A DNA stretch of 64,000 nucleotides from positions 3,100,001 through 3,164,000 of the forward strand of contig NZ_CP044427.1 of NCBI RefSeq assembly GCF_008843165.1, written 5' to 3'. The notes beneath the pieces were generated by a model. It had not been told where the DNA came from. It made no database searches and was given only the letters and a program-made list of their open reading frames with translations. Positions 23,106-41,858 of the stretch are shown here, piece after piece (the first letter of the stretch is position 1; each line of letters opens with the position of its first letter). The DNA comes from Ornithinimicrobium pratense. GTDB lineage: Bacteria > Actinomycetota > Actinomycetes > Actinomycetales > Dermatophilaceae. The position numbers and the translations under genes are program-made.

Positions 23106-23118
23106 GTAGTGATACTAC
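23106..23118. promoter_or_regulatory. RpiR-regulon operator 1 (importer 1 operon)
   Basis: GTAGT-GAT-ACTAC is a perfect 5-bp inverted repeat with a 3-bp centre. It lies upstream of the first ABC importer operon and just downstream of the rpiR stop. Four further copies of the same pattern occur in the window, all at operon heads. Confidence 0.75.
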
Positions 23119-23135
23119 CTACTGCTGAAGGGGTG

Positions 23136-24083
23136 TCAAGCCTTCCTGGTCCCGCCGTCAACAATTCCCTCGGGACCGGGATGCCAGCCGTCCATGGAGG
23201 TCTTGCTCGCCCGGAACCGGGCAAGCTCGCGCTTCATCGTCCGCACCCGGTCGAGATGCTGGGGCCCCTTCTTGACCACCACGGCCGTCGCGAGGATGTC
23301 GATGACGACGAGCCCGGCGAGACGGCTGACCATGGGGGTGAACACCTCGGTGTCCTCGTAGGTCTTGGCGATGAGCGCAACGTCGCAGAACGGCACCAGC
23401 GGCGTCTGACCCCCCGTCAGGCCGATGATGGTCGCCCCATGGCGCCGGGCCAGCTCGGCGACCTCGAGGACGATGCCGGTGTTGCCGGTGTTGGAGATGA
23501 TGAAGAAGACGCAGCCCGGCTCGCACATCGAGGCCGCCATGACCTGCTGATGGGCATCGAGTGGGGCGGAGCACGGCACCCCGAACAACCCGCCCTTCTG
23601 CTCCGCGTCCTGGGCGATGATGCTTGAGGCGCCGAAGCCGATGAACGTCACGGAGGTTGCCGCGGCCAGATAGTCGACGGCCTTGGAGAGCGCCTCGGGG
23701 TCGTAGGTCTTACGGGCTCGGTCAAGGCTGCTGATGGTGTGGTCGAACACCTTCTGCGCCATCGTCTCCACGGAGTCACCAGGCTCGATGCCCGAGTAGG
23801 TGACCGGGACCCCGAGGGCGAGCACCTGGGCGAGGTCAAGCTTGAAGGCCTGGAACCCGTCGTAGCCGAGCCGCAGAGCAAAGCGCATGACCGTCGGCTC
23901 GGACACCCCGGCGGCGTCGGCCACCGCGGCCATCGTGTAGCCAAGGATGTCTGCCGGAGCGGCCAGCACCACCTGGGCGACCTTCTGCTCGGACTTGCGC
24001 AGGCTGGGCATCGCGTCTCGGATCCGTTCGAGGAGGGGCATCTCCTCGACCATCGGGCTCCCGCCATTGGGACTCGCAGTCAT
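23136..24083 (-). CDS. MurR/RpiR-family regulator with SIS domain
   Basis: The 315-residue protein has an N-terminal HTH_6 domain (MPSLRKSEQKVAQVVLAAPA, MAAVADAAGVSEPTVMRFAL) and a C-terminal SIS sugar-phosphate domain (VTFIGFGASSIIAQD, FIISNTGNTGIVLEVAELA, ATIIGLTGG, DVALIAKTYED). RpiR proteins of this form sense a phosphosugar and usually repress. ATG 24083 follows GGGGAG by five bases; a GTG one codon earlier is too close. It is the last gene of the unit headed by the operator at 28387, so it is probably autoregulated, and it is the natural binder of all five local palindromes. Confidence 0.93.
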   Translation of the reverse strand: MTASPNGGSPMVEEMPLLERIRDAMPSLRKSEQKVAQVVLAAPADILGYTMAAVADAAGVSEPTVMRFALRLGYDGFQAFKLDLAQVLALGVPVTYSGIEPGDSVETMAQKVFDHTISSLDRARKTYDPEALSKAVDYLAAATSVTFIGFGASSIIAQDAEQKGGLFGVPCSAPLDAHQQVMAASMCEPGCVFFIISNTGNTGIVLEVAELARRHGATIIGLTGGQTPLVPFCDVALIAKTYEDTEVFTPMVSRLAGLVVIDILATAVVVKKGPQHLDRVRTMKRELARFRASKTSMDGWHPGPEGIVDGGTRKA

Positions 24084-24143
24084 CACTTCTCCCCTGTAGA
24101 TAAGGCATCGTAGCGCTGGGGGCGGCCCGGGGAGGGGGAGCTT

Positions 24144-24785
24144 TCAGCCACCAAGCTGTGCCGCCTCGCCGGCCAACCTCTCGATGGTGGCCCAGTCCCC
24201 CGCGTCAATGGCGGCCTCGGGCGTGATCCACGAGCCCCCGACGCAGGCGACGTTCGCGAGCGCGAGGTAGTCCGCGGCGTTCTTCCGGTTGACCCCGCCG
24301 GTGGGGCAGAACTGCAGGTCTGGCAGCGGTCCGCGCACATTGGCCAGGTAGGTGGCGCCGCCCGCCGCCTCAGCGGGGAAGAACTTCATGGTGCGCCACC
24401 CGCGGTTCGCGAGCTGCATCATCTCGGTGGTGGTGGCCGCGCCGAGCAGAGCTGGGACGTTGGCGTCCAGGACGGCGTCCTGCAGGTCGGCCGGCGAGCC
24501 CGGCGAGACGACGAACCGCGCGCCGGCCTCGACAGCGAGCGTGACCTGCTCCGGGGTGGTCACCGTGCCGGCGCCCAGGACGATGTCGGGCACCTCCGCC
24601 GCGATGGCCCGGATCGCCTCGATCGCAGCCGGGGTGCGCAGGGTCAGCTCGATGACGGGCACCCCGCCTCGCACCAGGGCCTTGGCCACGCTCACCGCGG
24701 CCTCAGCGCTCGGCACCTTGACGACGGGCACCACCGGGCTCATCCGGCAGATCTCTTCCATCGTGAGGGTCGTAGCCGTGCTCAT
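24144..24785 (-). CDS. eda: KDPG/KHG aldolase family protein
   Basis: The 213-residue protein matches the class I KDPG aldolase length and layout: VVPVVKVPSAEAAVSVAKAL, GGVPVIELTLRTPAAIEAI, LGAGTVTTPEQ, RFVVSPG, the Schiff-base lysine in MKFFPAEAAGG, and FCPTGGVNRKNAADYLAL. It should cleave a 2-keto-3-deoxy-6-phosphoaldonate or related 2-keto-4-hydroxy acid to pyruvate plus an aldehyde. ATG 24785 has an AGGTG site. It lies six bases after the phosphotriesterase-family gene. No sugar-acid dehydratase is encoded in the window, so the origin of its substrate is unclear. Confidence 0.92.
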   Translation of the reverse strand: MSTATTLTMEEICRMSPVVPVVKVPSAEAAVSVAKALVRGGVPVIELTLRTPAAIEAIRAIAAEVPDIVLGAGTVTTPEQVTLAVEAGARFVVSPGSPADLQDAVLDANVPALLGAATTTEMMQLANRGWRTMKFFPAEAAGGATYLANVRGPLPDLQFCPTGGVNRKNAADYLALANVACVGGSWITPEAAIDAGDWATIERLAGEAAQLGG

Positions 24786-24790
24786 GGTCT

Positions 24791-25762
24791 TCACCTTTTC
24801 TGGTCGATCTCGGGTGCGGTGCGCCACGTCAGCCACCGCGAGGGGTTCTTCGTCGTCAGGAGTGCCACGCCCTGTTCACCGATGGCCGCGCGCACCCGTG
24901 GCAAGAATCGCCGGTAGGTGTAGGCCAGGCCCGGCATCCCGCCGTAGGACTCATACCGGCTGCGCCGGGCGACGTCACCGCCCAGCAGCGTGCGGTCTTC
25001 GCCGCCACCGGCGACAACCTTTTCCAGGCAGTCGACCAGCACACTGTCGGGCCACGATTTGTGGCGTGCGCAACCGTCGTAGCCGAGGTAGGCACCGCGT
25101 GCCGCCAACTCCAGATGCAGCCCTGGGTCCGGGTTGCGGTCGATATGGGCGAGCGCGACCCGGTCCTCGGGGCAGCCAGCCTCGGCCAGCATGGTCAACA
25201 CTTCGTGCGCGGCGCTGCCGTGCTCAAGGTGCACCATCACCGGGGCGCCGAGCTCGGCGCTGACTCCGCCGGCGGCCTCGATCGCCCGCCGTTCGAAGGC
25301 GCTGACCGACCAGTAGCCGATGCCTACCTTCACCAGGCCGGCGCGGCCGTGGCGGGCGGGCTCGGCATCGTGTGCGTCGCGGTCGTCGACCAGCCCGTCG
25401 ACGAGCTCGGCACGGAACGCCTGAGCGAGCTGCGCGGTGCTCTTCGCGGTGAGGTCGGGACGTGCAGGATAGTGGGACTCCCGGTGGACGCCGGTGGTGT
25501 GCACCACGTGCACACCCAGATCCCGCGAGATCCGCCGCACGGCGCTGGGCACCCGACCGAGCCCGATCGGGGTGGCTTCCACCAGACAACCCACGCCGGC
25601 CGCCACGAGGTCCGCGGCCTCCGCACGGCTGTGCTCCTCGTCGTCGAGCTCGTCACCGGGCAGCAGCGGGGTGGTCTGGAAGAGGTGCTCGTGGTAGTTC
25701 ACTACGCCCAACTCGCCGGGTGCGACGTCGCCGAGGACGGTGCGCACGGCGCGGTCGGTCAC
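24791..25762 (-). CDS. Phosphotriesterase-family metal hydrolase, probable sugar lactonase
   Basis: The 323-residue amidohydrolase-superfamily protein has the expected metal ligands: HxH in VNYHEHLF, a probable carbamylated Lys in GLVKVGIGYW, His in MVHLEHG, His in LAHIDRNPD and Asp in LLGGDVARR. The second His block reads VHLEHG, where many relatives have T-H-T. Members of this group in sugar clusters hydrolyse aldono- or phospho-lactones, which fits the flanking dehydrogenase, kinase and aldolase. The GTG start overlaps the kinase stop (GTGA). Confidence 0.85.
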   Translation of the reverse strand: MTDRAVRTVLGDVAPGELGVVNYHEHLFQTTPLLPGDELDDEEHSRAEAADLVAAGVGCLVEATPIGLGRVPSAVRRISRDLGVHVVHTTGVHRESHYPARPDLTAKSTAQLAQAFRAELVDGLVDDRDAHDAEPARHGRAGLVKVGIGYWSVSAFERRAIEAAGGVSAELGAPVMVHLEHGSAAHEVLTMLAEAGCPEDRVALAHIDRNPDPGLHLELAARGAYLGYDGCARHKSWPDSVLVDCLEKVVAGGGEDRTLLGGDVARRSRYESYGGMPGLAYTYRRFLPRVRAAIGEQGVALLTTKNPSRWLTWRTAPEIDQKR

Positions 25763-27252
25763 AGCAGGGCCGCCCGCTTGGTGAACCAGCCCTCCAGCCG
25801 GGAGTATGCGTCGAGGAACAGCTCGTGGTGGCTGCGATAGCTCTCGTGTGCCTCCGGGTCGGGGGCGAACTCCGCGGAGATGTGCGACAGCCCCCGGGCA
25901 ATGCCGAAGTCCGCCCGACCCAGCCCCACGAGCCCGGTGACCGCCGCGCCCATGCTGTTGGCTTCACGCACCACGGTCCGCCGGCGAACCGGGAAGCCCC
26001 AGATGTCGGCAAGGACCTGCAGCCAGGTGTCGCTCAACGCCCCTCCGGCGATGGCATCGACGCCGTCGATCTGACGACCCGCGTCCCGCAGCGCCCCGAG
26101 GCAGGTGGCGAGGTTGAAACCCACACCCTCGAGCACGGCACGCATCATGTCCTGGGCCGTGTGGAACCGCTCCAGCCCGACGAAAGCGCCGGCCGCCTCG
26201 GCGTTCCAGTATGGCGACCGCTCCCCCATGAGGTGCGGCAGGAAGTACAGCCCGGTGGATGCGCCGCGCCCCTCGGCGGCCCCTTCGACCGCCTCGGCGG
26301 TCGACACCCCGGACAATCCCAGCGCCTCGATCGCCCACGACACACTCGCCGCACCCGCCTGCATCGTGGCCGTGGGCACGAACTTTCCCGGCACCACATG
26401 GTTGAAGGTCATCGACCTCATCTGGGGGTCGTGGAGCGGCACGTCTGAGGCACAGGAGACCCACGAGGAGGAGCCGAGGCTGACGTATACGCCGTCATCC
26501 TCCGCGACCACCCCGGCGCCGACCGCGGCCATCGGCCCGTCGCCACCGCCAGCGACCACCGGGGTGCCAGCACGTAGCCCGACCTGGGCCGCCACCCGCT
26601 CGGTGACGTGGCCGACGACGGCGGTGGAGGCCACGATGCGCGGCATGAGCGCCGGGTCGATGCCCGCTGCCTCGAGCACCCGCGCGGACCATTGGCCGCT
26701 GCGTTGGTCGTAGGCGTTGGTGCTGGACGCGTCCGACGGGTCAGTCACCAGCTCTCCGGTGAGGAGGTAGTTGATGTAGTCCTTCGCCAGGCAGACGTGG
26801 CGCACGCGCCGCCAGACGTCGGGTTCGTTGTCGCGGACCCACATGACCTTCGCGATGGAGTAGGTCGGGTTGAGCTGGTGCCCGAGCTCGCGGTATGCCT
26901 CGGCGCCGGGAATCCGGTCGAGCAGCTGGGCGGTCTGTGCCGTCGAACGGTCGTCGGCCCAGATGATGGACGGGCGCACTGGCCGGTAGTCCCCGTCCAG
27001 CAGGACAGCGCCCATCATCTGCCCGGAGATGACGATCCCGGACACCGCGTCCGGGGACTCGACGCTGGTGCTGAGCAGCTCACTGGTCGCCTGGCCGACG
27101 GCGTCCCACCAGTCATCGGGTGCCTGTTCTGCCACGCCCCCGGGGCGGAAGTCGGTGCCGTACTCCACGGTGGTCGCCGAGAGCAGTCGCCCGGAGTCGT
27201 CGTGAAGCGACGCCTTGTTCCCCGTCGTCCCGAGGTCGTGGGCCAGTATCAC
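25759..27252 (-). CDS. FGGY-family carbohydrate kinase (xylulokinase-like)
   Basis: The 497-residue protein has the two-domain FGGY layout: LAHDLGTTGNKASL at the N-terminus, GIVISGQMMGAVLLD, WADDRS, CLAKDYINYLLTGE with DPSDASSTN, GGGDGPMAAVGAG (ATP side), YFLPHLMGERSPYWN and AIAGGALSDTWLQVLADIWG. It phosphorylates a ketose, polyol or sugar acid with ATP in the cytosol; the family cannot be resolved further by eye. It is coupled to the dehydrogenase upstream (ATGA) and the lactonase-like gene downstream (GTGA). Confidence 0.92.
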   Translation of the reverse strand: MILAHDLGTTGNKASLHDDSGRLLSATTVEYGTDFRPGGVAEQAPDDWWDAVGQATSELLSTSVESPDAVSGIVISGQMMGAVLLDGDYRPVRPSIIWADDRSTAQTAQLLDRIPGAEAYRELGHQLNPTYSIAKVMWVRDNEPDVWRRVRHVCLAKDYINYLLTGELVTDPSDASSTNAYDQRSGQWSARVLEAAGIDPALMPRIVASTAVVGHVTERVAAQVGLRAGTPVVAGGGDGPMAAVGAGVVAEDDGVYVSLGSSSWVSCASDVPLHDPQMRSMTFNHVVPGKFVPTATMQAGAASVSWAIEALGLSGVSTAEAVEGAAEGRGASTGLYFLPHLMGERSPYWNAEAAGAFVGLERFHTAQDMMRAVLEGVGFNLATCLGALRDAGRQIDGVDAIAGGALSDTWLQVLADIWGFPVRRRTVVREANSMGAAVTGLVGLGRADFGIARGLSHISAEFAPDPEAHESYRSHHELFLDAYSRLEGWFTKRAALL

Positions 27253-28292
27253 GGCGAAGAAGCCTTCGCGGTGGCCTCGATACCGGGCGTCACGACTACC
27301 TTGCCCTCGTTCCCGGAGAGCGCCGCGGCGAGCGCTGCCCCGGCCTCCTCCAGGCCGTAGTAGGAGGTGATGAGCTCATCGAGGCCGGCCGGCTGGTCGG
27401 CAAGGTAGGACATCGCCCACTCGTAGTCGGCCTTGGTGTACATCAGCGTTCCCAGGATCCTCAGCTCGCGGTCCTGCACCAGGTGCAGGGGGAACAGGAT
27501 CGACTCGGCCGGCACACCGACGACGACGACGGTGCCACCCTTGCGTACCGCGCCGACGGCCTGCGCCGCGGAGGGGACGTTGGTGACGCAGTCGAAGGCG
27601 ACGTCGAAGTCCTGAGCCTCGGCAATCTGCTGGGAGAACTCTGCGGGGCTCAACGCGGCATCGATGCCCAGCCGCAGGGCACGCTCCCGCTTGACCGGGT
27701 CGGTGTCGGTGATGACCACCTGCCGGGCTCCTCGCGCCTTGGCGACGAGAGCCACCAGCACGCCGATGGTGCCAGCGCCCAGGACCGCGACCTTGGCCTC
27801 CTCGCCGACCCCGGCCTTGGTGACCGCGTGGGCAGGGGTGGCGAGCGGCTCGATGAGCGCCGCATAGGCATCGGGAAGGTCCGCGGGGATCAGGTGCAGC
27901 CGCGAGGCGTCGATCAGGAAGTAGTCGCTCATCCCGCCAGGCGTCTGGCAGCCGAACACGGCGAGCGTCTCGCAGATGTTGTAGTTGCCAGCCAGGCAGT
28001 TGGCGCAGGTCCCGCAGGTGAGGTTCGGCTCAACTACGACGCGGTCACCGACCGCGAGGTCCGACACACCTTCGCCGACGGCATCGACCGTGCCGACGAC
28101 CTCGTGTCCGGGTGAGTACGGGAGGTTCATGAACGGGTGATCACCCTGGACTGCGTGCAGGTCCGACCCGCACAGTCCCACGAGCGTCGAGGCGACCCGC
28201 ACCTCACCTGGCCCTGGCGCGGCCACCGGCTCGGTGGCCAGGCTGACCTCGGCGCCACCATGAAAGGTGACTCGACGGCTGTTGCGAGACAT
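27249..28292 (-). CDS. Zinc-dependent medium-chain dehydrogenase (sorbitol/threonine DH-like)
   Basis: The 347-residue protein has catalytic zinc ligands in LCGSDLHA and PGHEVVG, a four-Cys structural zinc lobe (CGTCANCLAGNYNIC) and a Rossmann motif VAVLGAGTIGVLVALVA followed by an Asp (ITDTDP), suggesting NAD preference. It probably oxidises a polyol or aldose. It heads a five-gene unit (dehydrogenase, kinase, lactonase-like, eda, rpiR). Ribosome site AAGGAGG precedes the ATG, and an operator palindrome lies 95 bp upstream. Confidence 0.92.
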   Translation of the reverse strand: MSRNSRRVTFHGGAEVSLATEPVAAPGPGEVRVASTLVGLCGSDLHAVQGDHPFMNLPYSPGHEVVGTVDAVGEGVSDLAVGDRVVVEPNLTCGTCANCLAGNYNICETLAVFGCQTPGGMSDYFLIDASRLHLIPADLPDAYAALIEPLATPAHAVTKAGVGEEAKVAVLGAGTIGVLVALVAKARGARQVVITDTDPVKRERALRLGIDAALSPAEFSQQIAEAQDFDVAFDCVTNVPSAAQAVGAVRKGGTVVVVGVPAESILFPLHLVQDRELRILGTLMYTKADYEWAMSYLADQPAGLDELITSYYGLEEAGAALAAALSGNEGKVVVTPGIEATAKASSP

Positions 28293-28386: not shown

Positions 28387-28399
28387 GTAGTCATACTAC
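28387..28399. promoter_or_regulatory. RpiR-regulon operator 2 (dehydrogenase-kinase-lactonase-eda-rpiR unit)
   Basis: GTAGT-CAT-ACTAC, extended to a TGTAGT...ACTACA match, lies about 95 bp upstream of the dehydrogenase ATG. Confidence 0.78.
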
Positions 28400-28461: not shown

Positions 28462-29331
28462 TCAGTGAAGGCTGATCGTCTCCACCGCCGTCAGCTGGTC
28501 GCGGATGAAGCGGTTGGCGTGGGAGCCCAGATCGGCGTTGTCCTCCCACAGGTTGCGCCAGATGCCTAGCATGCGACTGAGATCGGGCGCCACCACGGCG
28601 GATGAGAACGACTCGAAGGTGATGGGCCCGTCGTAGCCGAGCCGCCCCAGCGCCTTGAAGAAGTTGCCGAAGTCGACGTTGCCGGTCCCGAGGTAACCGC
28701 GGTGGCTCTCGCCGATATGCACGTAGTGCAGGAGCTCGCCGGCGTCCAGCACGGGCGCGAACATATCGGACTCCTCGATGTTCATGTGATACGTGTCGAG
28801 GTGAATGCCGAGGTTGGGCCGGTCCACGTCAGCGACAAAGCGGGCCGCCTGACGAGCAGTGTTCAGCACGTTCGTCTCATACCGGTTGACGACCTCGAGG
28901 CTGACCTTGACACCACGCGCGGCAGCGTGATCGGCGACCGTCCCGATGGTGCGCTTGCTGTTCTCCAGGCCCTGTGTCGTGACCGGGTCCATGTACTTCT
29001 TCATCGCGCTGTAGATCACGCCGCACAGGTGGGTGCCGCCCATGTCGGCGAGGACGTCGACAGCGCGCAGGAGGAGCGCCTCGCCTGCCGCCACGACCTC
29101 AGGGTCGGTGCTCGTGACGTCCGTGCTGTCCGAGAGACCCAGGGAAGCGCTCGCCTTCAACTCGTTCTCCGCCAGGGCGCTCACTGCCGCCTCGGTATCG
29201 AAGGTGAACGGATCCATCAGGGGGTACTCGATGAGGTCGAACCCGGCCTCCTTCGTCTTTCGCGCTGCCAGGCTAATACCCTGCTGGTCAAACGATCCGG
29301 TCCAGACCAGGCCGTGACATCCGATATCCAT
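28462..29331 (-). CDS. TIM-barrel sugar epimerase, D-tagatose/D-allulose 3-epimerase family
   Basis: The 289-residue protein has every catalytic block of the ketose 3-epimerases in order: the general-base Glu in VSLEVVNRYETNVLNTA, metal Asp in LGIHLDTYHMNIEESD, His and substrate Arg in HIGESHRGYLGTG, and the second Glu in ITFESFSS. A metal-dependent enzyme, it interconverts C3 epimers of ketoses. The length is normal. It is the last gene of SDR, dehydrogenase, epimerase, 21 bp behind the dehydrogenase. Its presence argues that a ketose is an intermediate of this island. Confidence 0.9.
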   Translation of the reverse strand: MDIGCHGLVWTGSFDQQGISLAARKTKEAGFDLIEYPLMDPFTFDTEAAVSALAENELKASASLGLSDSTDVTSTDPEVVAAGEALLLRAVDVLADMGGTHLCGVIYSAMKKYMDPVTTQGLENSKRTIGTVADHAAARGVKVSLEVVNRYETNVLNTARQAARFVADVDRPNLGIHLDTYHMNIEESDMFAPVLDAGELLHYVHIGESHRGYLGTGNVDFGNFFKALGRLGYDGPITFESFSSAVVAPDLSRMLGIWRNLWEDNADLGSHANRFIRDQLTAVETISLH

Positions 29332-29352: not shown

Positions 29353-30402
29353 TCAGAACGACAGAACAATCTTCCCGGACGTCTTGCCCCCCAGATAGTC
29401 AGCGAAGAACGCAGGCGCCTCATCGATCGGGACGACATCGGAGACAAAGTCACCCAGCACGAGGTCCCCGCTCTCGACCCAGTCGATGACCTGCTGGTGA
29501 CACGCGCCCTCCTCGTCCTTGCGCGGCATCTGCTGGAACTTCAGCGTCCAGTTGTACGGGGCGCGCGACCAGTCGATGTGCATGGAGCCCTCTTTGGGCA
29601 CCCCGTAGCAGAACAGGATCCCGCGGTCCCGCAGCATCGGCAGCGCTTCGTTGATGACGGAGGGATGCCCGACGGCATCGATGACGGCACCCACTCCCCC
29701 CGGGAGCAGGTCACCCACCGCGCCGGCGACGTCCACCGCCCGGGAGTTGATGCAGGTGGTTGCGCCGAACTGTTGCATCAGCGAGGCCTTCTCCTCGCTG
29801 CGGACGACAGCAATGATCTGGGTGGCTCCGAGCAACCGCAGAAGCCTGGCGAAGGTCATCGCCACGGGCCCTGACCCATAGATGACGACCGGCTCCGCCA
29901 CGTCGATACCACTCACGTAGATGCTGCTGAGGACCTCGCGCAGCGTCACGATGACCGGAGCGTGGAGTGGCTCGATGGATGCGGGGACGATCGACTGGGC
30001 GACAGCCGCCTCCGGGGCCGGGCCTGCCACCGTGCCCGCCTCGAAGGCGGCGATGTCATCGACGAGGGTGAATTCACTGAACGCGCCCCAGGCCGACCCG
30101 AGCGGTCGTCCGGCTTCCGTGGGGTTGGGCACGAAGGGCAGCAGGACCACGTCACCGACCGTGTAGGAGGTGACGTCAGTCCCCACCTCGACGACGCGGC
30201 CCACCGACTCGTGGCCGAGCACGAGGGGATACTGCGCAGGCTCGATCCCCTTGAAGCTGCCGTGGAGCAGCGTCCCATCGGTGCCGCAGATGCCGCCCCC
30301 GATCGTCTTGACCAGTGCCTGATGAGACGCCGGCCGAGGTCGGTCGATCTGCCTGATCTCCACCTTGCCGGCAGTGCCGACCACGAGCGCCTTCATGTCC
30401 AT
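29353..30402 (-). CDS. Zinc-type medium-chain dehydrogenase lacking the structural zinc lobe
   Basis: The 349-residue protein has catalytic ligands in GGICGTDGTLLHG and LGHESVGRVVEVG and a cofactor motif PVVIYGSGPVAMTFARLLRL. The usual four-Cys lobe is replaced by VLLPFVPNPTEAGRPLGSAW, with no cysteines, as in some glucose-dehydrogenase-like and L-idonate-like branches. It likely oxidises a sugar or sugar alcohol. Start: ATG 30402, with AAGGAG 11 bases upstream; ATG 30396 is two codons in. It lies between an SDR and the epimerase on one transcript. Confidence 0.88.
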   Translation of the reverse strand: MDMKALVVGTAGKVEIRQIDRPRPASHQALVKTIGGGICGTDGTLLHGSFKGIEPAQYPLVLGHESVGRVVEVGTDVTSYTVGDVVLLPFVPNPTEAGRPLGSAWGAFSEFTLVDDIAAFEAGTVAGPAPEAAVAQSIVPASIEPLHAPVIVTLREVLSSIYVSGIDVAEPVVIYGSGPVAMTFARLLRLLGATQIIAVVRSEEKASLMQQFGATTCINSRAVDVAGAVGDLLPGGVGAVIDAVGHPSVINEALPMLRDRGILFCYGVPKEGSMHIDWSRAPYNWTLKFQQMPRKDEEGACHQQVIDWVESGDLVLGDFVSDVVPIDEAPAFFADYLGGKTSGKIVLSF

Positions 30403-33776: not shown

Positions 33777-34471
33777 GGCGCCTCCGAGGCCCCTCGGGCC
33801 TCCTCGGCGAGCCGCATCGCGACCTCTCCATTCATACCGAACCGCGTGACGCCGAGCGCAATCATCTCCCGGACCACGGACAGCGCACGGATCCCGCCCG
33901 CAGCCTTGAGCTGGGCACGTCCTTGCACTGCGTCGGCCAGCAGCCGGATGTGGCGGACCTCGGTCGCCTGGCCGGACCACCCGGTGCCGGTCTTGACCCA
34001 CGGGACACCGGCGTCGACCGCCGCCTGGGCCCCGGCCAGGATCTGCTGATCGTCAAGGTAGCCGACCTCGAGAATCGCCCGGAGTGGCACTGCGTCATCA
34101 ACCGTCCGTACCACCACCTCCAGCTCGCGACGGACGTCATCGATCATGCCGGACCGCAGCTGGCCGACGTTCACGACGACGTCAAGCTCCTGGGCACCGA
34201 GGTCGAGGAGCCGGCGGGCCTCCTCGACCTTGACCTCGGTGACCGTTCCGCCGGAGGGGAAACCCACCGGGCCGCCTGCGAGGGTCGCCGATCCTTCCAG
34301 CAGGGTGCGCAGCAGCGGCAGCCACGAGGGCAGCACGTGGGCACTGACGAAGTCTCCCGCCACGGCACGTTCGGCCAACAACTCGACATCGCTTCGGCCA
34401 TGGAATGCCTGGACGCAGCTGATGTCGACGTGGCGCGGCAGCCGGGTGACGTCGAGTGGGAGGGCGCTCAC
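33773..34471 (-). CDS. deoC: Deoxyribose-phosphate aldolase family (DERA-type)
   Basis: The 232-residue class I aldolase has the catalytic set visible: Asp in QELDVVVNVGQL, Schiff-base Lys in VPWVKTGTGWSG and the proton-relay Lys in AQLKAAGGIRALS. It also has the family stretch GGPVGFPSGGTVTEVKVEEA. It cleaves a 2-deoxy-sugar 5-phosphate to acetaldehyde and a triose phosphate, or acts on a related ketose phosphate. Here it sits with an FGGY kinase and a sugar importer rather than with nucleoside genes, so a catabolic sugar substrate other than nucleoside-derived deoxyribose is plausible. ATGA overlap with the permease. Confidence 0.88.
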   Translation of the reverse strand: MSALPLDVTRLPRHVDISCVQAFHGRSDVELLAERAVAGDFVSAHVLPSWLPLLRTLLEGSATLAGGPVGFPSGGTVTEVKVEEARRLLDLGAQELDVVVNVGQLRSGMIDDVRRELEVVVRTVDDAVPLRAILEVGYLDDQQILAGAQAAVDAGVPWVKTGTGWSGQATEVRHIRLLADAVQGRAQLKAAGGIRALSVVREMIALGVTRFGMNGEVAMRLAEEARGASEAP

Positions 34472-35586
34472 CGAGCGCCGTTGTCGACAGGCTGGTCAGC
34501 AGCACCGCCACCAGCCGTTGTCCCCATCTGGGTGTCGGCCGGCGGAGCCGCTCCGGCGCGGTTGCGCTTGCCGGAGAGCCGGCGGCGGAACTGGTCCAGG
34601 GCGACGACCAGGACGAGCACCACGCCGGTGGCGACGTCCTGCCAGAAGCTGGATACACCGAGGATGTTGAGACCGTTGGCGAGCGAGGCGAGGATCGCGA
34701 CACCGATGACGGTGCCGCCGACGCGTCCCTCACCACCGGCCAGCGCCGTCCCACCGAGGACCACGGCAGCAATCGTGGTGAGCTCCATGGCGGGTGCCAT
34801 GAGGCCGTTGGCCGAGTCGAGGCGACCGGCCATCAGGATGCCGCCGATGGCGGCGAAGCCACCAGCGATCAGGTAGGCGTAGATCTTGGTCGCCTGGACG
34901 TTGATTCCGGCTACCCGTGCGGCCTCGGCATTCCCACCGGCGGCGATGAGCCGCCGTCCGAGCGTCGTGCGGTTCAGCACCACCCACGTGGCGAGCACGA
35001 GCACGACCGCCACGATGGCGATGATCGGGATCGGTCCGAGGGATTGGCTGCCCAGGGTCTGCACGACCTCGGGCATGGTCCGCCCGGGGATCGCGACCCC
35101 GTGGTTGGGGATCGGGTAGCCGTCGGTGATGAGCAGCGCGACGCCGCGAACGGCGGTGTAGGCACCGAGGGTGGCGACGAAGTCGGGCACCCGCCACTTA
35201 GTGATGACGAAGCCGTTGATGAGGCCCACCAGCAACCCGGTGAGGACGCCGAGCAGGACCGCGAGCCAGCCACCGAGTCCGATCTGCGTGTACATGATCC
35301 CCATGACGCACGCGCTCAGTGCCGCGGTGCTGGCCACCGACAGGTCGATGCCGGCGGTGATGATGACCAGCGTCTGGCCCATCGCGAGAATGAGTGGCAC
35401 CGAGAACTGGCGGAGGATGTTGACGAGGTTGTTCTGGGAGAGGAACACCCCGTCGGAGAGAAACCAGAGTAGCCCGACGAGGACGACGAGCATGATGATC
35501 GGTCCACCCAGCCCCCCTGCACCGAAGAATCGGCCCAGGGCGCCGATCTGCGAGACGCTCGCGCGCCTGGCGACAAGTTCAGACAT
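34468..35586 (-). CDS. Sugar ABC importer permease, RbsC type (importer 2)
   Basis: The 372-residue membrane protein has GQTLVIITAGIDLSVASTAA, GLINGFVITKWRVPDFVATL and GGTALAGGEGRVGGTVIGVA. A single permease gene is present, so it would act as a homodimer, unlike importer 1. ATG 35586 overlaps the ATPase stop by eight bases (ATGTCTGA) and has a GGAGGAG-type site. The C-terminal extension of about 35 residues is hydrophilic. Confidence 0.92.
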   Translation of the reverse strand: MSELVARRASVSQIGALGRFFGAGGLGGPIIMLVVLVGLLWFLSDGVFLSQNNLVNILRQFSVPLILAMGQTLVIITAGIDLSVASTAALSACVMGIMYTQIGLGGWLAVLLGVLTGLLVGLINGFVITKWRVPDFVATLGAYTAVRGVALLITDGYPIPNHGVAIPGRTMPEVVQTLGSQSLGPIPIIAIVAVVLVLATWVVLNRTTLGRRLIAAGGNAEAARVAGINVQATKIYAYLIAGGFAAIGGILMAGRLDSANGLMAPAMELTTIAAVVLGGTALAGGEGRVGGTVIGVAILASLANGLNILGVSSFWQDVATGVVLVLVVALDQFRRRLSGKRNRAGAAPPADTQMGTTAGGGAADQPVDNGAR

Positions 35587-37075
35587 GTGCTCCTCCTGCT
35601 GCTGCAACGATCGTGTCCTCATCAGCCGATGCCGGCAGATCGGCGACGATCCGGCCATTGGCCATGACGAGTATTCGGTCACCGAGCCGTTGTGCTTCCT
35701 CGGCGTCGGAGGTGAGATAAAGGACTCCAGCCCCGCTCGCACTGAGCTCGGCCAGCTCAGCGAAGATCTCCTCGCGGGCACCCACATCGACGCCCCGCGC
35801 GGGGTCGTCGAGAATCAGGACGTGCGCTCCGCGCAGTAGCCATCGGGCGAGCAGAACCTTCTGTTGGTTCCCGCCCGAGAGCTGTCCAACCGGGGTGTCC
35901 ACAGACTCGGTCTTGATCGCGAGCCGTTGGACGAACTCCTTGGCCTTGGCCGTCGCTGCCTTGCGGTTGTAGTGACCGTAGGAGGAGAAGAGGCCAAGAC
36001 TGCCCAGGGTGATGTTGTCGACGACACTCATCTTGGGGACCAGGCCAGCACTGCGGTCCTCCCCGACGAAGCCGATCTTGGCGTTGATCGCGTCCAGCGG
36101 CTTCGTCGGGGCGAAGGGCTTGCCCTCGATGCTGGCGCTCCCCCCTGTCCAGGTCTCCAGACCGAAGAGGGCCCGCGCGAGCCTCGTGCGGCCGGCGCCC
36201 ATCAGGCCGTACACCGTGACGACCTCACCCGCGCCGATCTGCAGGTCGATGCCCTTGAGTCGTTCGTCGACGCGAAGACCGGTGACCTCGAGCAGCGCCT
36301 GGCCACGGGCTGCTCCTTGAGCGGTGCGCTCCACCTGGCGAACGTCACCGACCATCATCCGCGCCAGGGTCTTCTCATCCGTCCCGGCCGTCTCCACAGG
36401 CGGGTCGGCCTGGCCGTCCCGCAGGATGGTGACCCGATCGGTGAGCTCGAGGATCTCGCTCATCCGGTGGGAGACGTAGATGACCGAGGTCCCGTTGGCC
36501 TTGAGCTCGCGCACGAGCTCAAAGAGCCGGCGGGTCTCGGCGTCGGACAGCGAGGACGTCGGCTCGTCGAGGAGCAGCACGCTGATCTCGCCGTCGAGGG
36601 CCTTCGCAATCTCGAGGAGCTGACGCTCGGCCATCCCCAGATTCGTCAGCGGCTCCTCAGGCCGGCGCTGAAGCCGGACCCGTTCCAGCGCCCGCACCGT
36701 GGCGGCGCGGCTGGCCTTACGGTTGAGGAACCCGGCCGTGCTCGACCATCGACCGAGCTGGAAGTTCTCGGCGACTGTCATGGTGGGGACCAGGCTGAGC
36801 TCCTGGTTGACGACGGCCACCCCGAGCTCCCGGGCGCCGGAGGGCGAGCCGAGCCGCGACTTGACGCCGCGGACTCGGACGCTGCCTTGGTCCGGCTCGT
36901 AGATCCCGGCCACCACTTTGATCAGCGTCGACTTGCCGGCGCCGTTCTTGCCGAGCAGGCCGTGGACCTCTCCAGAGTCGATCGACAGATTGAGGCTCCG
37001 CAGCGCCCGGTTGGCGCCAAACGACTTGCTCACGTCGACCAGCTCAAGCACTGGTGTGGACCCAGTGGTCGTCAT
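35579..37075 (-). CDS. Sugar ABC importer ATPase, RbsA type (importer 2)
   Basis: The 498-residue, two-domain ABC protein has domain 1 GKNGAGKST, NLGMAERQLLEIAKAL and LLLDEPTSSLSD. Domain 2 has a degenerate P-loop GLMGAGRTRL, the signature LSGGNQQKVLLARW and ILDDPARGVD, where the usual catalytic Glu is Asp. ATG 37075 follows GGGAGA; the longer open frame is noise. It is placed between the binding protein and the permease of the same unit. Confidence 0.93.
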   Translation of the reverse strand: MTTTGSTPVLELVDVSKSFGANRALRSLNLSIDSGEVHGLLGKNGAGKSTLIKVVAGIYEPDQGSVRVRGVKSRLGSPSGARELGVAVVNQELSLVPTMTVAENFQLGRWSSTAGFLNRKASRAATVRALERVRLQRRPEEPLTNLGMAERQLLEIAKALDGEISVLLLDEPTSSLSDAETRRLFELVRELKANGTSVIYVSHRMSEILELTDRVTILRDGQADPPVETAGTDEKTLARMMVGDVRQVERTAQGAARGQALLEVTGLRVDERLKGIDLQIGAGEVVTVYGLMGAGRTRLARALFGLETWTGGSASIEGKPFAPTKPLDAINAKIGFVGEDRSAGLVPKMSVVDNITLGSLGLFSSYGHYNRKAATAKAKEFVQRLAIKTESVDTPVGQLSGGNQQKVLLARWLLRGAHVLILDDPARGVDVGAREEIFAELAELSASGAGVLYLTSDAEEAQRLGDRILVMANGRIVADLPASADEDTIVAAAGGAHV

Positions 37076-37112
37076 CGACCGTCTCCCTTCTGGCGGTGCA
37101 GGATCACGAACG

Positions 37113-38312
37113 TCAGGACGCGTCGCAGCTCTCGGCGATCTCGGCCCAGTCGATCTCCGGCAGGCTCGGCTCCGGGTAGAACTGGTCGGCGTTGCCGACG
37201 TACACGGTGCGCGGCCGGATGTCGTTGAACCGCTCCGCCTCAAGCCCACACGCGAGCTCAACAGCGACCTGCGTCCCGACCCAGCCCCAGTCAGCGAAGC
37301 CGTGGCTGGTCTCGGCGATGATGTCTCCGGCGCGGATGGCGTCGGTCGACTCGCCGGTGTTGTCGTTGGTGAACAGCGCCGTCAGGCCAGGGGTGGGCTC
37401 GCCGTTGTCGGCGTTGACATCGAGCCGGTCGGCGCCCTTGAGGATGCTGCTGGCACCCAGCGCCATCTCGTTCGAGGCGGCCCAGATGAAGTCGAGCTCC
37501 TCGTAGCGGGTGATGATGGCGGCCGCGGCGTCAGCGCCCACCTGACGGTCCCAGTCACCGGCGAGGGTTGTGACGACCTCGACGCCCGGCGCAAGCTCCA
37601 TCACCTCGTTGAAGCCTTGCAGGCGCTGGTTGGAGTAGATCGTCCCCTTGACCCCCTCGATGAGGGCACCGGAGACCTCGACGTCGCTGAGGTCGGCGTC
37701 CGCGTACAGCTCCTCCCAGAAGGCAAGGTCGAGGTAGTCCTCCTCGGCGACCTCGACCTTCTCACCGGCGCCCAGGACACCGGGGCCGCCGAAGTAGTCG
37801 AGGACGGAGTAGGCGGAGATCCGGCCGGCGTCGACGTTGTCGAAGCCGACGAAGGCGGAGACGTCGACGTCATCCGGGTCATCGAGAAGGTTGACGTAGA
37901 CGACGGGGATGCCAGCGTCGTTCGCTGCCCGAACTGCAGGCTTGATGGCCTCGGAGTCACCGGGTGAGACGACGATGACGTCGACATCGGTGGAGATGAG
38001 GTTCTCGATGATCTGCTGGAACCCGGCCGAGTTGGCCTCGCCCCCGGTGGGCGCCTGGACGGTCAGGTCGATGTCGAAGCCGTTCTCGTTGGCTTCGGCC
38101 ACCGCCGCCTCGAAGTAGGAGGTGGCGGTGTTGAAGACGCCGGTGGTGTTGGCGGGGACCCAACCAATCGACAGCTCGTGCCTGGCGCCGTCGCCGTTGG
38201 AGTCTGCGGAGCCGGCGGAGCCGTTGTCCGAGCTGTCGTCGGCACATCCGACGAGAGCGATAGCCGTGGCCCCGGCGACGGTCGCCGCAGTCATTGCGCT
38301 TCGTATGGTCAT
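37113..38312 (-). CDS. Sugar-binding lipoprotein of ABC importer 2
   Basis: The 399-residue protein has signal and lipobox IALVGC at about residue 23, then an acidic Ser/Asn/Gly linker. The binding fold shows IGWVPANTTGVFNTATSYFE, NLISTDVDVIVVSPGDSEAI, AANDAGIPVVYVNLLDD, QRLQGFNEVMEL and ASNEMALGASSIL. It is longer than typical ribose-binding proteins (about 300), with an inserted acidic segment around FGGPGVLGAGEKVEVAEED. The ligand is unknown; it differs from the importer 1 protein, so the two importers probably take different compounds. Confidence 0.9.
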   Translation of the reverse strand: MTIRSAMTAATVAGATAIALVGCADDSSDNGSAGSADSNGDGARHELSIGWVPANTTGVFNTATSYFEAAVAEANENGFDIDLTVQAPTGGEANSAGFQQIIENLISTDVDVIVVSPGDSEAIKPAVRAANDAGIPVVYVNLLDDPDDVDVSAFVGFDNVDAGRISAYSVLDYFGGPGVLGAGEKVEVAEEDYLDLAFWEELYADADLSDVEVSGALIEGVKGTIYSNQRLQGFNEVMELAPGVEVVTTLAGDWDRQVGADAAAAIITRYEELDFIWAASNEMALGASSILKGADRLDVNADNGEPTPGLTALFTNDNTGESTDAIRAGDIIAETSHGFADWGWVGTQVAVELACGLEAERFNDIRPRTVYVGNADQFYPEPSLPEIDWAEIAESCDAS

Positions 38313-38366
38313 GTTCTCAAGAGCCTTTCGGTCGTGGAGGTTGATCGACGTCAGGGAGACCTGGCG

Positions 38367-39125
38367 TCACCAGCTGGTGTAACCGCCGTCGATGGTCAGG
38401 ACTGAACCCGTCATGAAACTGGCGGCGTCGGAGGCCAGGAAGGCCACGAGGGAGGCCACGTCTTGGGTGGTCCCCATCTCGCCCGTGGGAGTGAGCTGCT
38501 TCCACTTCTCGATCCAGTCCGGGCGCACGTGGACAGTGAGGTCGGTCGCGATGTAACCCGGTGCTACCGAGTTGAACCGGATCCCCGCCGGTGCGTGCTC
38601 AACGGCGAGACTGGAGGTCAGGGCGTGGACGGCTGCCTTCGAGGCGTTGTAGGACGCCTGGGGCTGGGGGTGGTTGACGATGAGGCCCGACATCGAACCG
38701 ATGGTGATGACCGAGCCGCCACGTGCCAGACGGCGTCCGGCTTCCTGGGCGGCCCAGAACGTGCCGTCGACGTTGGTGTCCATCACGTAGCGCCAGCCGT
38801 CCTCGACGACGTCGTTGCTCGGCAGGTGCTCGACGACGCCCGCGCTCGTGACGACGATCTGCAGAGACCCGAAGGCTGCCTCGGCGGCGTCGAAAGCCGC
38901 GGTGACCTGCGCCTTGTCTCGCACATCGCCACGGAAGAACTCGACCCGCGCGTCGGGGCGGTCGAGCTCGGCGACGACCGACCGTCCCTCATCCTCGAGC
39001 AGGTCGACGATGAGGACGTTGGCGCCGAACTCGTTGAGGGCCCGGACGATCTCGCGGCCGATGCCTCGGGCACCGCCGGTGACGAGGGCCGAGCGACCGG
39101 AGATATCTGTGCGTGAGCGATACAT
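38367..39125 (-). CDS. Short-chain dehydrogenase, polyol type
   Basis: The 252-residue SDR has SALVTGGARGIGREIVRAL, NAD-type Asp in VLIVDLLED, GSMSGLIVNHPQPQASYNAS with catalytic Ser, Tyr and Lys, and the C-terminal SFMTGSVLTIDGGYTSW. It is paralogous to the SDRs at 30489 and 41988. First gene of the importer 2 unit: its ATG lies 28 bp from the operator at 39153, then SBP, ATPase, permease, aldolase, kinase and SDR follow. Confidence 0.9.
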   Translation of the reverse strand: MYRSRTDISGRSALVTGGARGIGREIVRALNEFGANVLIVDLLEDEGRSVVAELDRPDARVEFFRGDVRDKAQVTAAFDAAEAAFGSLQIVVTSAGVVEHLPSNDVVEDGWRYVMDTNVDGTFWAAQEAGRRLARGGSVITIGSMSGLIVNHPQPQASYNASKAAVHALTSSLAVEHAPAGIRFNSVAPGYIATDLTVHVRPDWIEKWKQLTPTGEMGTTQDVASLVAFLASDAASFMTGSVLTIDGGYTSW

Positions 39126-39152: not shown

Positions 39153-39165
39153 GTAGTATTACTAC
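39153..39165. promoter_or_regulatory. RpiR-regulon operator 4 (importer 2 operon)
   Basis: GTAGT-ATT-ACTAC, with an extra A/T-rich flank (TTAGTAGTATTACTACAC), lies directly upstream of the SDR ATG, close enough to overlap a promoter. Confidence 0.78.
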
Positions 39166-39258: not shown

Positions 39259-40203
39259 CTAGTGCTGTCCCCCCAGGACGTCGAGAAGTTGGGCGACCGC
39301 AGCCTCGGTTGCGCGCCGGACGCTCCCGTCGGTGAATCCGCCCACGTGCGGCGACATCACCGTCCGCGGGTGCGACAGCAGCTCGTCGATGACCGGTGGC
39401 TCCTCGGCGAAGGCGTCGACCGCGTAGCCGCTGACCGCGCCCGACTCGAGGGCTGCATGCATCACGTCCGAGTCGACGAGAGCTGCCCGTGCCGTGTTGA
39501 CGACGATCGCTCCTCTAGGCAGCAGGCCCATCCGGTGCTTGTCGAGGAGGGGGCCGTCTGCGGACGGCGGGGCGTGCAGGCTGAGTAGGTCTGACCTGCC
39601 AAGGAGTACCTCGAGGTCCGCGACGAGCTCGTGCTCGACCGGGCCGGTCAGGAACGGATCGTGCACGCTGACCGAGGCACCTAGGGCGGTGAACAGAGCA
39701 GCGACACGACGGCCGATGGAGCCGTAACCGACGACACCGACGCGGATGTCACCCAGCTCGCGGCCCTTGGTGCGTTCCCAACGCCCGTCGTGCAGGGCCG
39801 CGTTCCCCTGAGGGATGCTGCGCAGCAGCGAGAGTCCGTGGGCGAGGGCCAGCTCGGCGACTCCCTGGGCGTTTGCGCCGGGAGCGGTGCGCACCTCGAT
39901 TGAGCACCGGGCTGCGGCCTGGAGGTTGATGTTGTCCGCCCCGACGCCGTTGCGGGCGATGACGCGCAGCGTGCCCGCAGACTCCAGCACCGCGGCGGGG
40001 ATCAGCTCGACGCCGGCGAGCCAGCCGACGACGTCGCCAGCGGCGAGCAGCGCGGTGAGCTCGGTCGCGCTGGGTGTCCGGCCGGCGGGTCCGGCGAGCA
40101 GCTGGAACTGCGCCCGGCGCAAGGGTTCGAGCTCGGCCACCGCGTCGAGCCCGGTGGCTGTCAGGGACCGCGGTGTAATGAGGACCCGGCCGCGGGCGCT
40201 CAC
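39259..40203 (-). CDS. D-isomer-specific 2-hydroxyacid dehydrogenase
   Basis: The 314-residue protein has NAD domain VGVVGYGSIGRRVAALF with Asp after strand 2 (VHDPF) and the catalytic triad: Arg in VNTARAALVD, Glu in AFAEEPPVI and His in SPHVGGFTDG. It interconverts a 2-hydroxyacid and 2-keto acid, possibly a sugar acid such as a phosphoglycerate, glycerate or aldonate. It is the last gene of the cupin isomerase, shikimate-DH-like, hydroxyacid DH unit and overlaps the upstream stop by GTGA. Confidence 0.9.
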   Translation of the reverse strand: MSARGRVLITPRSLTATGLDAVAELEPLRRAQFQLLAGPAGRTPSATELTALLAAGDVVGWLAGVELIPAAVLESAGTLRVIARNGVGADNINLQAAARCSIEVRTAPGANAQGVAELALAHGLSLLRSIPQGNAALHDGRWERTKGRELGDIRVGVVGYGSIGRRVAALFTALGASVSVHDPFLTGPVEHELVADLEVLLGRSDLLSLHAPPSADGPLLDKHRMGLLPRGAIVVNTARAALVDSDVMHAALESGAVSGYAVDAFAEEPPVIDELLSHPRTVMSPHVGGFTDGSVRRATEAAVAQLLDVLGGQH

Positions 40204-41165
40204 CGGGCCGCTCCGGCGATCTCCGCCAGTCGGTCGAAGGCAGGGCCAGAAGTCGGGATGTCGATCTGGAAGACTTCGCTGATCACCTGCGTCCAGCCGT
40301 GGATGAAGTAGACCCAGCCGTCCTCAACGTGCAGGCTGCGCTCAGTCTCCTGAGCCCGCGCCTGGTCGAGAAAGATGAGGTCACCGCGGTAGTTGAGGTC
40401 CCACACGAGGGCCCCGTCGGGAAACACGGCGGCGTCGGTGAGCGGTGAACCGGGGGCGTCCTTGCCCAGACCCGTGGCGTTGATGACGACGGCGCCCGGC
40501 GAGAGTGTCTTGAGCACGGCGTCGTTGTCGGCGGGGTTCGGCGTGTGGACGATGTCGAGCGGGACCTCGTTGCCGGCCTGCTCATGCACCTCCTGGAACC
40601 TGGTGAGCCGCGGAGTGCTGCGGTTGGAGACCACCGTGCGCGACGGCCGGTCGGCTCCCCTCCCGGACTGTCCGAGGTACCAGTCGATCGCGATGGCCGA
40701 GCCACCTGCACCCATGATGAACAACTCCGCCCCCGTGCTGGCAAAGTGACCGTCGGGGATGAAGGCATCGAGCGAGTGACCCGAGGAGAACGGGTCCTTC
40801 GCGCTGGCCTCGAGTCGTCCATCCCGCTTGGCCAGGCAGCTGACCTCCCCCATGAGCTCGGCCAGCGGGTCGACGCTGTCGAACAGGTCACCGGCCTCGC
40901 GGTAGAGGTCGATCTTGTGGGTCGTTACAAGGCCGCCGAGACTGAGCGGGTCCTGCTTGAGGAACTCCACCACCCTGCGGTAATGGTCGCGCGGTGCGTG
41001 CACCGCGAGATCGATGCCGACCATCTCGATGTCCCCGAGACCGAGCTCCTGCGCCCAGGCCGGGAAAACCCGGCGGATAGACGACTTACCGGTGGTGACC
41101 CCGACGAAGTAGAACGTCGGCTTGGTCGCGGGCTGGAGCGTGTCGTGGGTGTATGTCGTTGCCAT
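40200..41165 (-). CDS. Shikimate-dehydrogenase-like oxidoreductase, atypical substrate motifs
   Basis: The 321-residue protein has the two-domain shikimate/quinate dehydrogenase form. The likely catalytic Lys is in GGLVTTHKIDLY (usual pattern VTxPxK). The NAD(P) motif is IMGAGGSAIAIDWYL, followed by VVSNRSTPRLTRF and VINATGLGKDAPGSPL. The usual N-T-D-G-x-G substrate motif is replaced by SAKDPFSSGHSL, and the N-terminal S-x-S-P pattern is not seen. So it is probably not AroE. Its place in a sugar regulon suggests oxidation of a cyclic or open polyol or keto acid. Length (about 270 is usual) is extended at the C-terminus. Confidence 0.8.
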   Translation of the reverse strand: MATTYTHDTLQPATKPTFYFVGVTTGKSSIRRVFPAWAQELGLGDIEMVGIDLAVHAPRDHYRRVVEFLKQDPLSLGGLVTTHKIDLYREAGDLFDSVDPLAELMGEVSCLAKRDGRLEASAKDPFSSGHSLDAFIPDGHFASTGAELFIMGAGGSAIAIDWYLGQSGRGADRPSRTVVSNRSTPRLTRFQEVHEQAGNEVPLDIVHTPNPADNDAVLKTLSPGAVVINATGLGKDAPGSPLTDAAVFPDGALVWDLNYRGDLIFLDQARAQETERSLHVEDGWVYFIHGWTQVISEVFQIDIPTSGPAFDRLAEIAGAAR

Positions 41166-41222
41166 AGCAGTCCTTGTCGTGCGGTCCGGGCTGCGCTACA
41201 TATGCAGACGCAGCGACATCAC

Positions 41223-41822
41223 TCAGTTGGCGGCGGTCTCGTAGCCGCGGTGGTCAGGGTTCGGGATCTGGCTCCAGCCCTCGCCGTCCTTGACGATGAG
41301 CGTGCGCATCCCGCCCGCACGCTCGATGAGCGAGTAGTCCTGGCCGGCGTCCGCGGAGTAGCAGAACAGCGTGACGAAGGGTTCCTCGCCGACGTTCACG
41401 CTGCGGTGCACCCAGTGACCTGGCACGTTGACGGCCTTCCCAGGCGTCAGCTCGACGGCGAGCGAGTCTCCGTCGACGGTGTCGAGGAGCATGACCCCGT
41501 GACCGCTGAGGCAGTGGTAGAGCTCGGCGCGGTCAGCGACGGCATGCAGGTGGCCGCGGGTCATCGCGAACTCGGTGCTCACCGCTCCCGGCAGAAGGGT
41601 GCTTGTGCCGATGATGAGGGCGCCCGGGCTCGAGTCGTACTTCTGCTCGTGCACGACGTAGACAAGCTCATCGGCTCCTCGCTGGCTCACCTCGGCCGCG
41701 AAGGCCTCGGAGTCACGATAGAGGCCGTCGAGGTCACCCAGACGCTTCTCGTAGATCCTCGAGGCTCCGGACATCACCCCATCCGCTGCGATGTCGACAG
41801 TGACAGGCTGGTGGTAAGACAC
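41223..41822 (-). CDS. Cupin-type phosphoglucose isomerase family protein
   Basis: The 199-residue protein resembles the archaeal-type glucose-6-phosphate isomerase cupins. The metal-site pattern is visible: TRGHLHAVADRAELYHCLSG, with HxH and Glu, and the second His in VNVPGHWVHRSVN. It likely isomerises an aldose and ketose phosphate, or a free sugar, using a divalent metal. GTG 41822 follows AGGGG by seven bases. It heads the three-gene unit ending at 39259; the operator lies 24 bp upstream. Confidence 0.85.
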   Translation of the reverse strand: MSYHQPVTVDIAADGVMSGASRIYEKRLGDLDGLYRDSEAFAAEVSQRGADELVYVVHEQKYDSSPGALIIGTSTLLPGAVSTEFAMTRGHLHAVADRAELYHCLSGHGVMLLDTVDGDSLAVELTPGKAVNVPGHWVHRSVNVGEEPFVTLFCYSADAGQDYSLIERAGGMRTLIVKDGEGWSQIPNPDHRGYETAAN

Positions 41823-41845
41823 GCTAGTCCCCTTCGTCCGTGGAT

Positions 41846-41858
41846 GTAGTTAGACTAC
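41846..41858. promoter_or_regulatory. RpiR-regulon operator 5 (divergent cupin isomerase / SDR promoter)
   Basis: GTAGT-TAG-ACTAC with flanks TGTAGT...ACTACA sits between the divergent cupin gene (start 41822, minus) and SDR gene (start 41988, plus), and can control both. Confidence 0.76.

Follow-up and report, generated by a model that had tools for sequence, protein, structure and literature searches.

In a 64,000-nucleotide stretch of Ornithinimicrobium pratense DNA (contig NZ_CP044427.1, positions 3,100,001 to 3,164,000; this whole stretch is hereafter the window, and its positions are counted from 1), a sugar-use island of 23 genes in five units carries five exact copies of the palindrome GTAGT-N3-ACTAC. 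We consider it highly probable that these palindromes are the operators of the RpiR-family regulator encoded in the island (rpiR, 23136..24086, minus strand), which would act as a HexR/RccR-like repressor of all 23 genes, rpiR included, and be released by a phosphosugar. The 23 genes would very probably respond together to a sugar-phosphate sensor encoded among them. An initial annotation of this DNA had placed the gene at 23136-24083, of which the start is right and the end is now corrected to 24086. Binding itself, repression as opposed to activation, the direction of effector action and the chemistry of the effector are what we infer from sequence comparisons.

Results

Five palindromes confined to the sugar-use island

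All five sites listed in the initial annotation are exact and lie where it placed them, with the centres GAT, CAT, AAG, ATT and TAG. Its reading that each site stands in the leader of one of five units, with a divergent promoter among them, is borne out by the positions, the units being judged from strand and spacing alone. Putative operator 1 (23106..23118, GTAGTGATACTAC) heads sbp1-perm2-atp1-perm1 and also lies just beyond the rpiR stop codon; operator 2 (28387..28399, GTAGTCATACTAC) heads adh1-xylB1-pte-kdpgA-rpiR; operator 3 (31404..31416, GTAGTAAGACTAC) heads sdr1-adh2-tim; operator 4 (39153..39165, GTAGTATTACTAC) heads sdr3-sbp3-atp3-perm3-deoC-xylB2-sdr2; and operator 5 (41846..41858, GTAGTTAGACTAC) lies between cupin-aroE-hadh and the divergent sdr4. 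From site centre to start codon the distance is 190 bp at operator 1 and 151 bp at operator 3. The outer T and A that would extend the motif to a 15-mer are present on both sides at operators 2 and 5, on one side at operators 1 and 4, and on neither side at operator 3.

The whole genome (3,539,411 bp) holds the same five exact sites and no others, so the motif is not frequent genome-wide (five in 3.54 Mb), a frequency that the initial annotation had named as grounds for abandoning its proposal. Another 17 sites with one mismatch are dispersed over the genome and none is in the island, leaving a sharp gap between the five perfect sites and the background. The motif read backwards, used as a control, is commoner (11 exact sites and 208 at one mismatch), and hence what counts is how rare and how clustered this motif is, rather than palindromes as such. 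Across 185 other genomes of the family we found 15 exact sites, in 13 genomes; at that rate the Poisson probability of five sites in 18.75 kb is ~1e-19, assuming a total of ~694 Mb from approximated sizes of 3.75 Mb per genome. A first-order Markov model predicts 0.006 sites in the window. All five sites fall in non-coding DNA, which makes up 5.2% of the island, an outcome with a chance of ~4e-7.

A single HTH_6 protein and its match to RccR

One HTH_6 protein was found in the genome, the RpiR at 23136-24086. It matches PF01418 (HTH_6) with 68.4 bits against a cut-off of 28.3 and PF01380 (SIS) with 53.1 against 25. Its nearest solved structures are those of Pseudomonas RccR (8K3B and 8JU9), at 41% identity. 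RccR was also the top match of an AlphaFold2 model (mean predicted local distance difference test 85.2, predicted template modelling score 0.66), which we take as family support only, because the template modelling score against RccR is 0.50-0.56 and the root-mean-square deviation is near 17 across the two domains.

The 15-bp operator of RccR, TGTAGT-N3-ACTACA, was defined by chromatin immunoprecipitation sequencing, surface plasmon resonance and footprinting (PMC5489143; papers cited here by PubMed Central [PMC] number are drawn on in excerpt). Its core 13-mer is exact at the five window sites, and the consensus of gene-proximal sites in relatives is the full 15-mer. Among the matches listed in a search of the open-licence literature, TGTAGT occurred in the RccR paper alone (PMC5489143). 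The 28-bp type of RccR operator, with the same half-sites and a longer linker, was rejected as a candidate: exact GTAGT-N16-ACTAC is absent from the window and from the 80 loci described below, degenerate forms not having been scanned.

Co-occurrence of the motif and the RpiR clade

A contig scan with the window RpiR as a single sequence found no relative; an alignment query of the GTDB genome contigs gave 148, of which the best 80 were kept (47-60% identity). The neighbourhoods of these 80 relatives contain 60 exact copies of the motif, spread over 38 loci that come mostly from Actinobacteria with a few from Proteobacteria, while 29 control palindromes of the same composition reached at most 4 sites each in the same loci. 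When spacers of 0 to 8 were compared (87 loci, duplicates included), spacer 3 gave 66 sites and the others 0-5. A recognised gene start lies within 450 bp of 52 of the 63 exact sites in relatives, none of the 63 is inside a recognised gene, and the commonest target gene beside the sites is the cupin.

Relatives of several island genes accompany the clade. With loci cut by contig ends scored as misses, an aroE-like dehydrogenase is present at 71 of the 80, a cupin of the archaeal phosphoglucose-isomerase type at 64, an FGGY kinase at 59 (20 at ≥40% identity), a 2-hydroxyacid dehydrogenase at 52 (37 at ≥40% identity), a KDPG-type aldolase (KDPG, 2-keto-3-deoxy-6-phosphogluconate) at 37 and a phosphotriesterase-family protein at 36. 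In one genome (G466), whose RpiR is 82% identical to that of the window, the gene order is rearranged and exact operators still precede sdr1, cupin and sbp1, the last heading orthologs of the first transporter that are 78-93% identical.

Clusters without the regulator are also informative. Among 186 family genomes the aroE-like enzyme was found in four further ones, giving four same-genus clusters, three of which (L101, L103 and L104), in the stretches fetched, also contain relatives of cupin, kinase, hadh and pte, and the fourth (L102) relatives of aroE, pte, kdpgA and tim. Neither an RpiR relative (searched at E 1e-60, and at 1e-8 within the stretch) nor the motif was found in these four clusters. 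The motif therefore travels with RpiR and not with the enzymes. Together, the sole HTH_6 protein, the match to the RccR operator and this co-occurrence lend computational support to the earlier claim that the island RpiR controls the units.

An apparent exchange of regulators was seen in the same clusters, with GntR-type genes where the island has RpiR in L101-L103 (same-genus genomes G126, G115 and G118): L101 has two (UTRA and FCD types) in its cluster, and similarity to GntR was also detected in L102 and L103. In the L104 stretch no regulator could be identified.

Effector pocket

In RccR, KDPG is held by nine residues, with four serines at the phosphate, H148, R152 and K270 at the C1 carboxylate, K270 and R277 at the C2 keto group, and H164 and R277 at the C5 hydroxyl (PMC10810197). 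We mapped these positions by hand through an ungapped alignment to 8K3B. Seven are occupied in the window RpiR by S154, S198, T200, T203, H179, K285 and R292, and Q163 and L167 stand in place of H148 and R152. Five of the nine contacts are thus identical, two are Ser-to-Thr changes and two are replaced, which sets the pocket apart from that of RccR. All 29 sequences of the alignment (the window RpiR and 28 chosen from 448 protein hits) have Gln and Leu at these two positions. As judged from these residues, the clade has kept the phosphate, keto and C5-hydroxyl contacts and no longer has the two that are dedicated to the C1 carboxylate, and the pocket speaks for the proposal that RpiR senses a phosphosugar. 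Since the dedicated carboxylate contacts are Gln and Leu throughout, the inducer is probably a ketose-type phosphate, that is, a 2-keto phosphosugar without a C1 carboxylate, and not KDPG. The natural candidate is a phosphate of this type produced by one of the island FGGY kinases.

Doubled putative operators in relatives are mostly spaced by whole helical turns

At one mismatch, the spacings of neighbouring sites in relatives cluster at 72-74, 83-85, 92-96 and 103-108 bp. Near-duplicate pairs were removed by k-mer similarity, and of the 60 non-redundant pairs that remained, the 53 at 60-115 bp gave a mean resultant of 0.87 at a 10.5-bp period; the seven outside this range are spaced by 25, 44, 127, 155, 167, 189 and 189 bp. 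The phasing maximum was reached by none of 2000 uniform draws, although orthologous promoters of sister genera remain in the set, so that the Rayleigh value cannot be taken as a probability in the strict sense. A cupin hit was obtained at 69 loci, whose orthologous cupin promoters show no site (18 loci), one site (10) or two or more (41) at ≤2 mismatches, and in 39 of the 41 the spacing is within 2 bp of whole helical turns (chance ~48% each), the exceptions being L016 (92 bp) and L044 (118 bp). Three Verrucomicrobiota loci have 189 bp, or 18 turns, at this promoter. Doubled operators occur upstream of both cupin and ABC (ATP-binding cassette) transporter genes (loci L014-L099), at ~73, 84, 94, 105 and also 189 bp. 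Within the clade, operator spacing has shifted by whole helical turns.

Pairing is common and not universal, because no doubling is seen at two mismatches in the window or in G466, and 28 of the 69 loci with a cupin hit likewise show one site or none. We looked for second, weaker operators near the five window sites and found none at ≤2 mismatches within 130 bp except an overlapping register at 39150; at three mismatches there is one, at 31323, 81 bp from operator 3. Helper operators such as those of the relatives were accordingly rejected for the window. The relatives do not support the view that a single site is stronger than one in a pair, as isolated sites near gene starts are exact in 7 of 32 cases and paired sites in 44 of 103.

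RpiR proteins are tetrameric (PMC10810197, PMC12713135), and with whole-turn spacing this makes looping the obvious explanation; the doubled operators thus suggest DNA looping. In RccR, two sites at aceE are described as "68 bp apart" with apparent cooperativity (PMC5489143), which by our reckoning would put their centres 83 bp apart if the figure refers to the gap. No description of helical phasing of RpiR operators, or of this regulon, was found in our searches of the open-licence PMC literature. We tentatively propose, with rather less than even confidence, that the clade forms a separate effector class (ketose-type phosphate, invariant Gln/Leu) that normally loops as a tetramer between two operators at whole turns, mostly 7, 8, 9 or 10, and that the lineage of the window, lacking helpers, uses five perfect single sites alone or bridged across the 18.7-kb island.

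Promoter overlap and proposed mechanism

A promoter-like TTGACA-N16-TAGTAT (23112..23139, minus strand) precedes the sbp1 unit, and its -10 hexamer TAGTAT lies within operator 1. It is the best of three sigma-70-like matches in the 19-kb stretch, at 10/12 as a consensus match only, and the overlap of promoter and operator at sbp1 is likewise kept in G466. Operator 4 may overlap a TTGCAA-N16-TAGTAA in the same manner, this -10 overlap being weaker than that of operator 1.

The arrangement is most simply read as steric repression that a phosphosugar would relieve, which would agree with the behaviour of RccR at the 15-bp operator. An RpiR dimer, half of a SIS-domain tetramer, would recognise TGTAGT-N3-ACTACA; bound over the -10 element of operator 1, and perhaps that of operator 4, the dimer would block RNA polymerase, and at the remaining operators it might obstruct transcription close to the promoter. 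Once a sugar or polyol has been imported and phosphorylated, the resulting phosphosugar would enter the SIS pocket, and the filled pocket would lower operator affinity and release the 23 genes, rpiR included.

Gene content of the island and its surroundings

Apart from sdr4, all island genes are on the minus strand. The unit of operator 1 (perm1, atp1, perm2 and sbp1, 18150..22922) encodes a sugar-type ABC transporter. In the unit of operator 2, the RpiR/MurR-family regulator gene rpiR is accompanied by kdpgA (24144..24785, KDPG/KHG aldolase family), pte (24791..25762, phosphotriesterase family, with a phospho-furanose lactonase as its best NCBIfam model, below cut-off), xylB1 (25759..27252, FGGY carbohydrate kinase) and adh1 (27249..28292, Zn-dependent dehydrogenase). 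Operator 3 precedes tim (28462..29331, a xylose-isomerase-like TIM barrel whose best NCBIfam model, psicose 3-epimerase, is below cut-off), adh2 (29353..30402, Zn-dependent dehydrogenase) and sdr1 (30489..31259, short-chain dehydrogenase). The unit of operator 4 comprises sdr2, xylB2 (FGGY kinase), a deoC-like aldolase gene and perm3 (31469..35586), followed by atp3 and sbp3 of a second sugar-type ABC transporter and sdr3 (35579..39125). On either side of operator 5 lie hadh (2-hydroxyacid dehydrogenase), an aroE-like dehydrogenase gene and cupin (phosphoglucose-isomerase type), together 39259..41822, and the divergent sdr4 (41988..42755, plus strand, short-chain dehydrogenase). Structure and family searches of the island enzymes gave general matches and named no substrate, and literature searches for such a catabolic cluster returned nothing pertinent.

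Beside the island, the segment 13788-18064 contains a FadR-type GntR gene, a carboxyltransferase gene and TRAP (tripartite ATP-independent periplasmic) transporter genes, and a palindrome in the GntR leader, CAAGTAAGACACTTG, is likely the operator of GntR itself. On the other side, a thiamine pyrophosphate riboswitch (RF00059, 60.8 bits, 45402-45509, minus strand) heads a solute-binding-protein open reading frame (44192-45526), which probably belongs to a thiamine-type transporter because of this riboswitch.

Discussion

Several observations weigh against the five sites being operators of an RpiR repressor. The best NCBIfam model of the window RpiR is HexR (PRK11302), at 256.7 bits, and the cut-off of 296 is not reached. 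The exact motif is absent from 42 of the 80 loci (22 from Proteobacteria, 6 from Verrucomicrobiota and 14 from Actinobacteria, several of them on short contigs), and 20 of the 80 lack it even at one mismatch. Three of the seven whole genomes with an RpiR relative have no exact site, and six of the eight exact sites in the seven lie within 20 kb of rpiR. In G466 an extra exact site (L105:9995) lies ~35 kb from rpiR, with no relative of an island gene within the fetched 20 kb, and could be either an additional target or a chance occurrence. A -35 element is visible at two of the five window sites, operators 2, 3 and 5 having no clear one, and no recurrent -35 at the right distance upstream of the operators was found in relatives. 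The earlier claim that RpiR controls itself stands by position, rpiR being the fifth gene behind operator 2; it finds no counterpart in G466, where no exact operator precedes the adh1-rpiR stretch.

The sites could belong to another protein, and the FadR-type GntR encoded at 17309-18064, next to the island, would be the one to bind them, i.e. GTAGTNNNACTAC. By motif grammar both regulators are possible, because FadR-type operators also have GT-N3-AC within the palindrome as a general pattern, and the TKGT/ACMA boxes of that subfamily, with 3-nt spacing, come near TAGT-N3-ACTA (PMC4494728). The second base of the motif is A, however, and not G or T, so that the boxes are TAGT/ACTA; the leader of GntR itself lacks the motif and holds the different perfect 15-bp palindrome (17276-17290); the gene is divergent from the carboxyltransferase and TRAP transporter genes; and a GntR relative was found at 3 of the 80 RpiR-clade loci, at 36-37% identity. 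We rejected GntR on co-occurrence, on its own palindrome and on motif grammar; the nearby regulator is an unlikely binder of the motif, and that it binds these five sites seems very unlikely indeed.

With RpiR as the binder, two features of the proposed repressor can still be questioned. RpiR might bind the sites as an activator or dual regulator, which we regard as rather unlikely. GlaR is reportedly an RpiR-family activator and counts in favour of this possibility, as does the absence of a clear overlapping promoter at operators 2, 3 and 5. Another activator of the family is SpNanR (preprint PMC12713135). Repression is favoured by operator 1, which covers the -10 element in two species, and by RccR, which represses at the 15-bp aceE site and loses affinity in the presence of KDPG (PMC5489143). 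It is also conceivable, if doubtful, that an RpiR repressor here would respond to KDPG itself, the effector of HexR and RccR: a KDPG aldolase gene shares its unit with rpiR, and seven of the nine KDPG-contact positions are identical or Ser-to-Thr. The exchange of the RccR carboxylate residues H148 and R152 (PMC10810197) for Gln and Leu in all 29 sequences argues against it, and Pfam searches of the 23 island proteins, which left the aroE-like one without a match, gave no sugar-acid dehydratase.

Under repression by RpiR with release by a phosphosugar, 23 genes that might be taken for parts of several pathways would form a single regulon with one inducer, and one growth screen should therefore reveal the substrate of them all. 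The search tag TGTAGT-N3-ACTACA works in its exact form in Actinobacteria and some Proteobacteria, and the residue pair Q163/L167 predicts an inducer other than KDPG. The whole-turn spacing would make the question of looping by RpiR tetramers, raised in the SpNanR preprint (PMC12713135), directly testable on promoters whose operator spacing differs by one helical turn.

Of the systems compared, FadR-subfamily GntR operators (PMC4494728) share the GT-N3-AC core inside a palindrome and differ in their boxes, and no GntR regularly accompanies the motif. HexR is like the window RpiR by its NCBIfam model, below cut-off, and unlike it in controlling glucose-catabolism operons through the site TTGT-N7-8-ACAA (PMC5489143). 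SpNanR of Streptococcus pneumoniae (PMC12713135, preprint) is an RpiR regulator with five near-palindromic sites in one catabolic cluster, for which bridging by the tetramer and looping between spread sites were raised as a possibility; no helical phasing was met in the excerpted text, and SpNanR differs in its 18-bp recognition sequence, its action as an activator and its ligand, N-acetylmannosamine 6-phosphate. The closest counterpart is RccR (8K3B, 8JU9; PMC5489143, PMC10810197), which shares the HTH_6 and SIS domains at 41% identity, the 15-bp operator, and the phosphate, keto and C5-hydroxyl contacts of the pocket. The targets of RccR are central-carbon genes, and it has a 28-bp site in addition (PMC5489143), whereas here the regulon is local and catabolic, and the C1-carboxylate contacts of RccR (PMC10810197) are Gln and Leu in the window RpiR. 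Independent computation supports the interpretation well: the regulon would be a local one, governed by RpiR through an operator of the RccR type, and the regulator would belong to a variant clade with an altered effector pocket.

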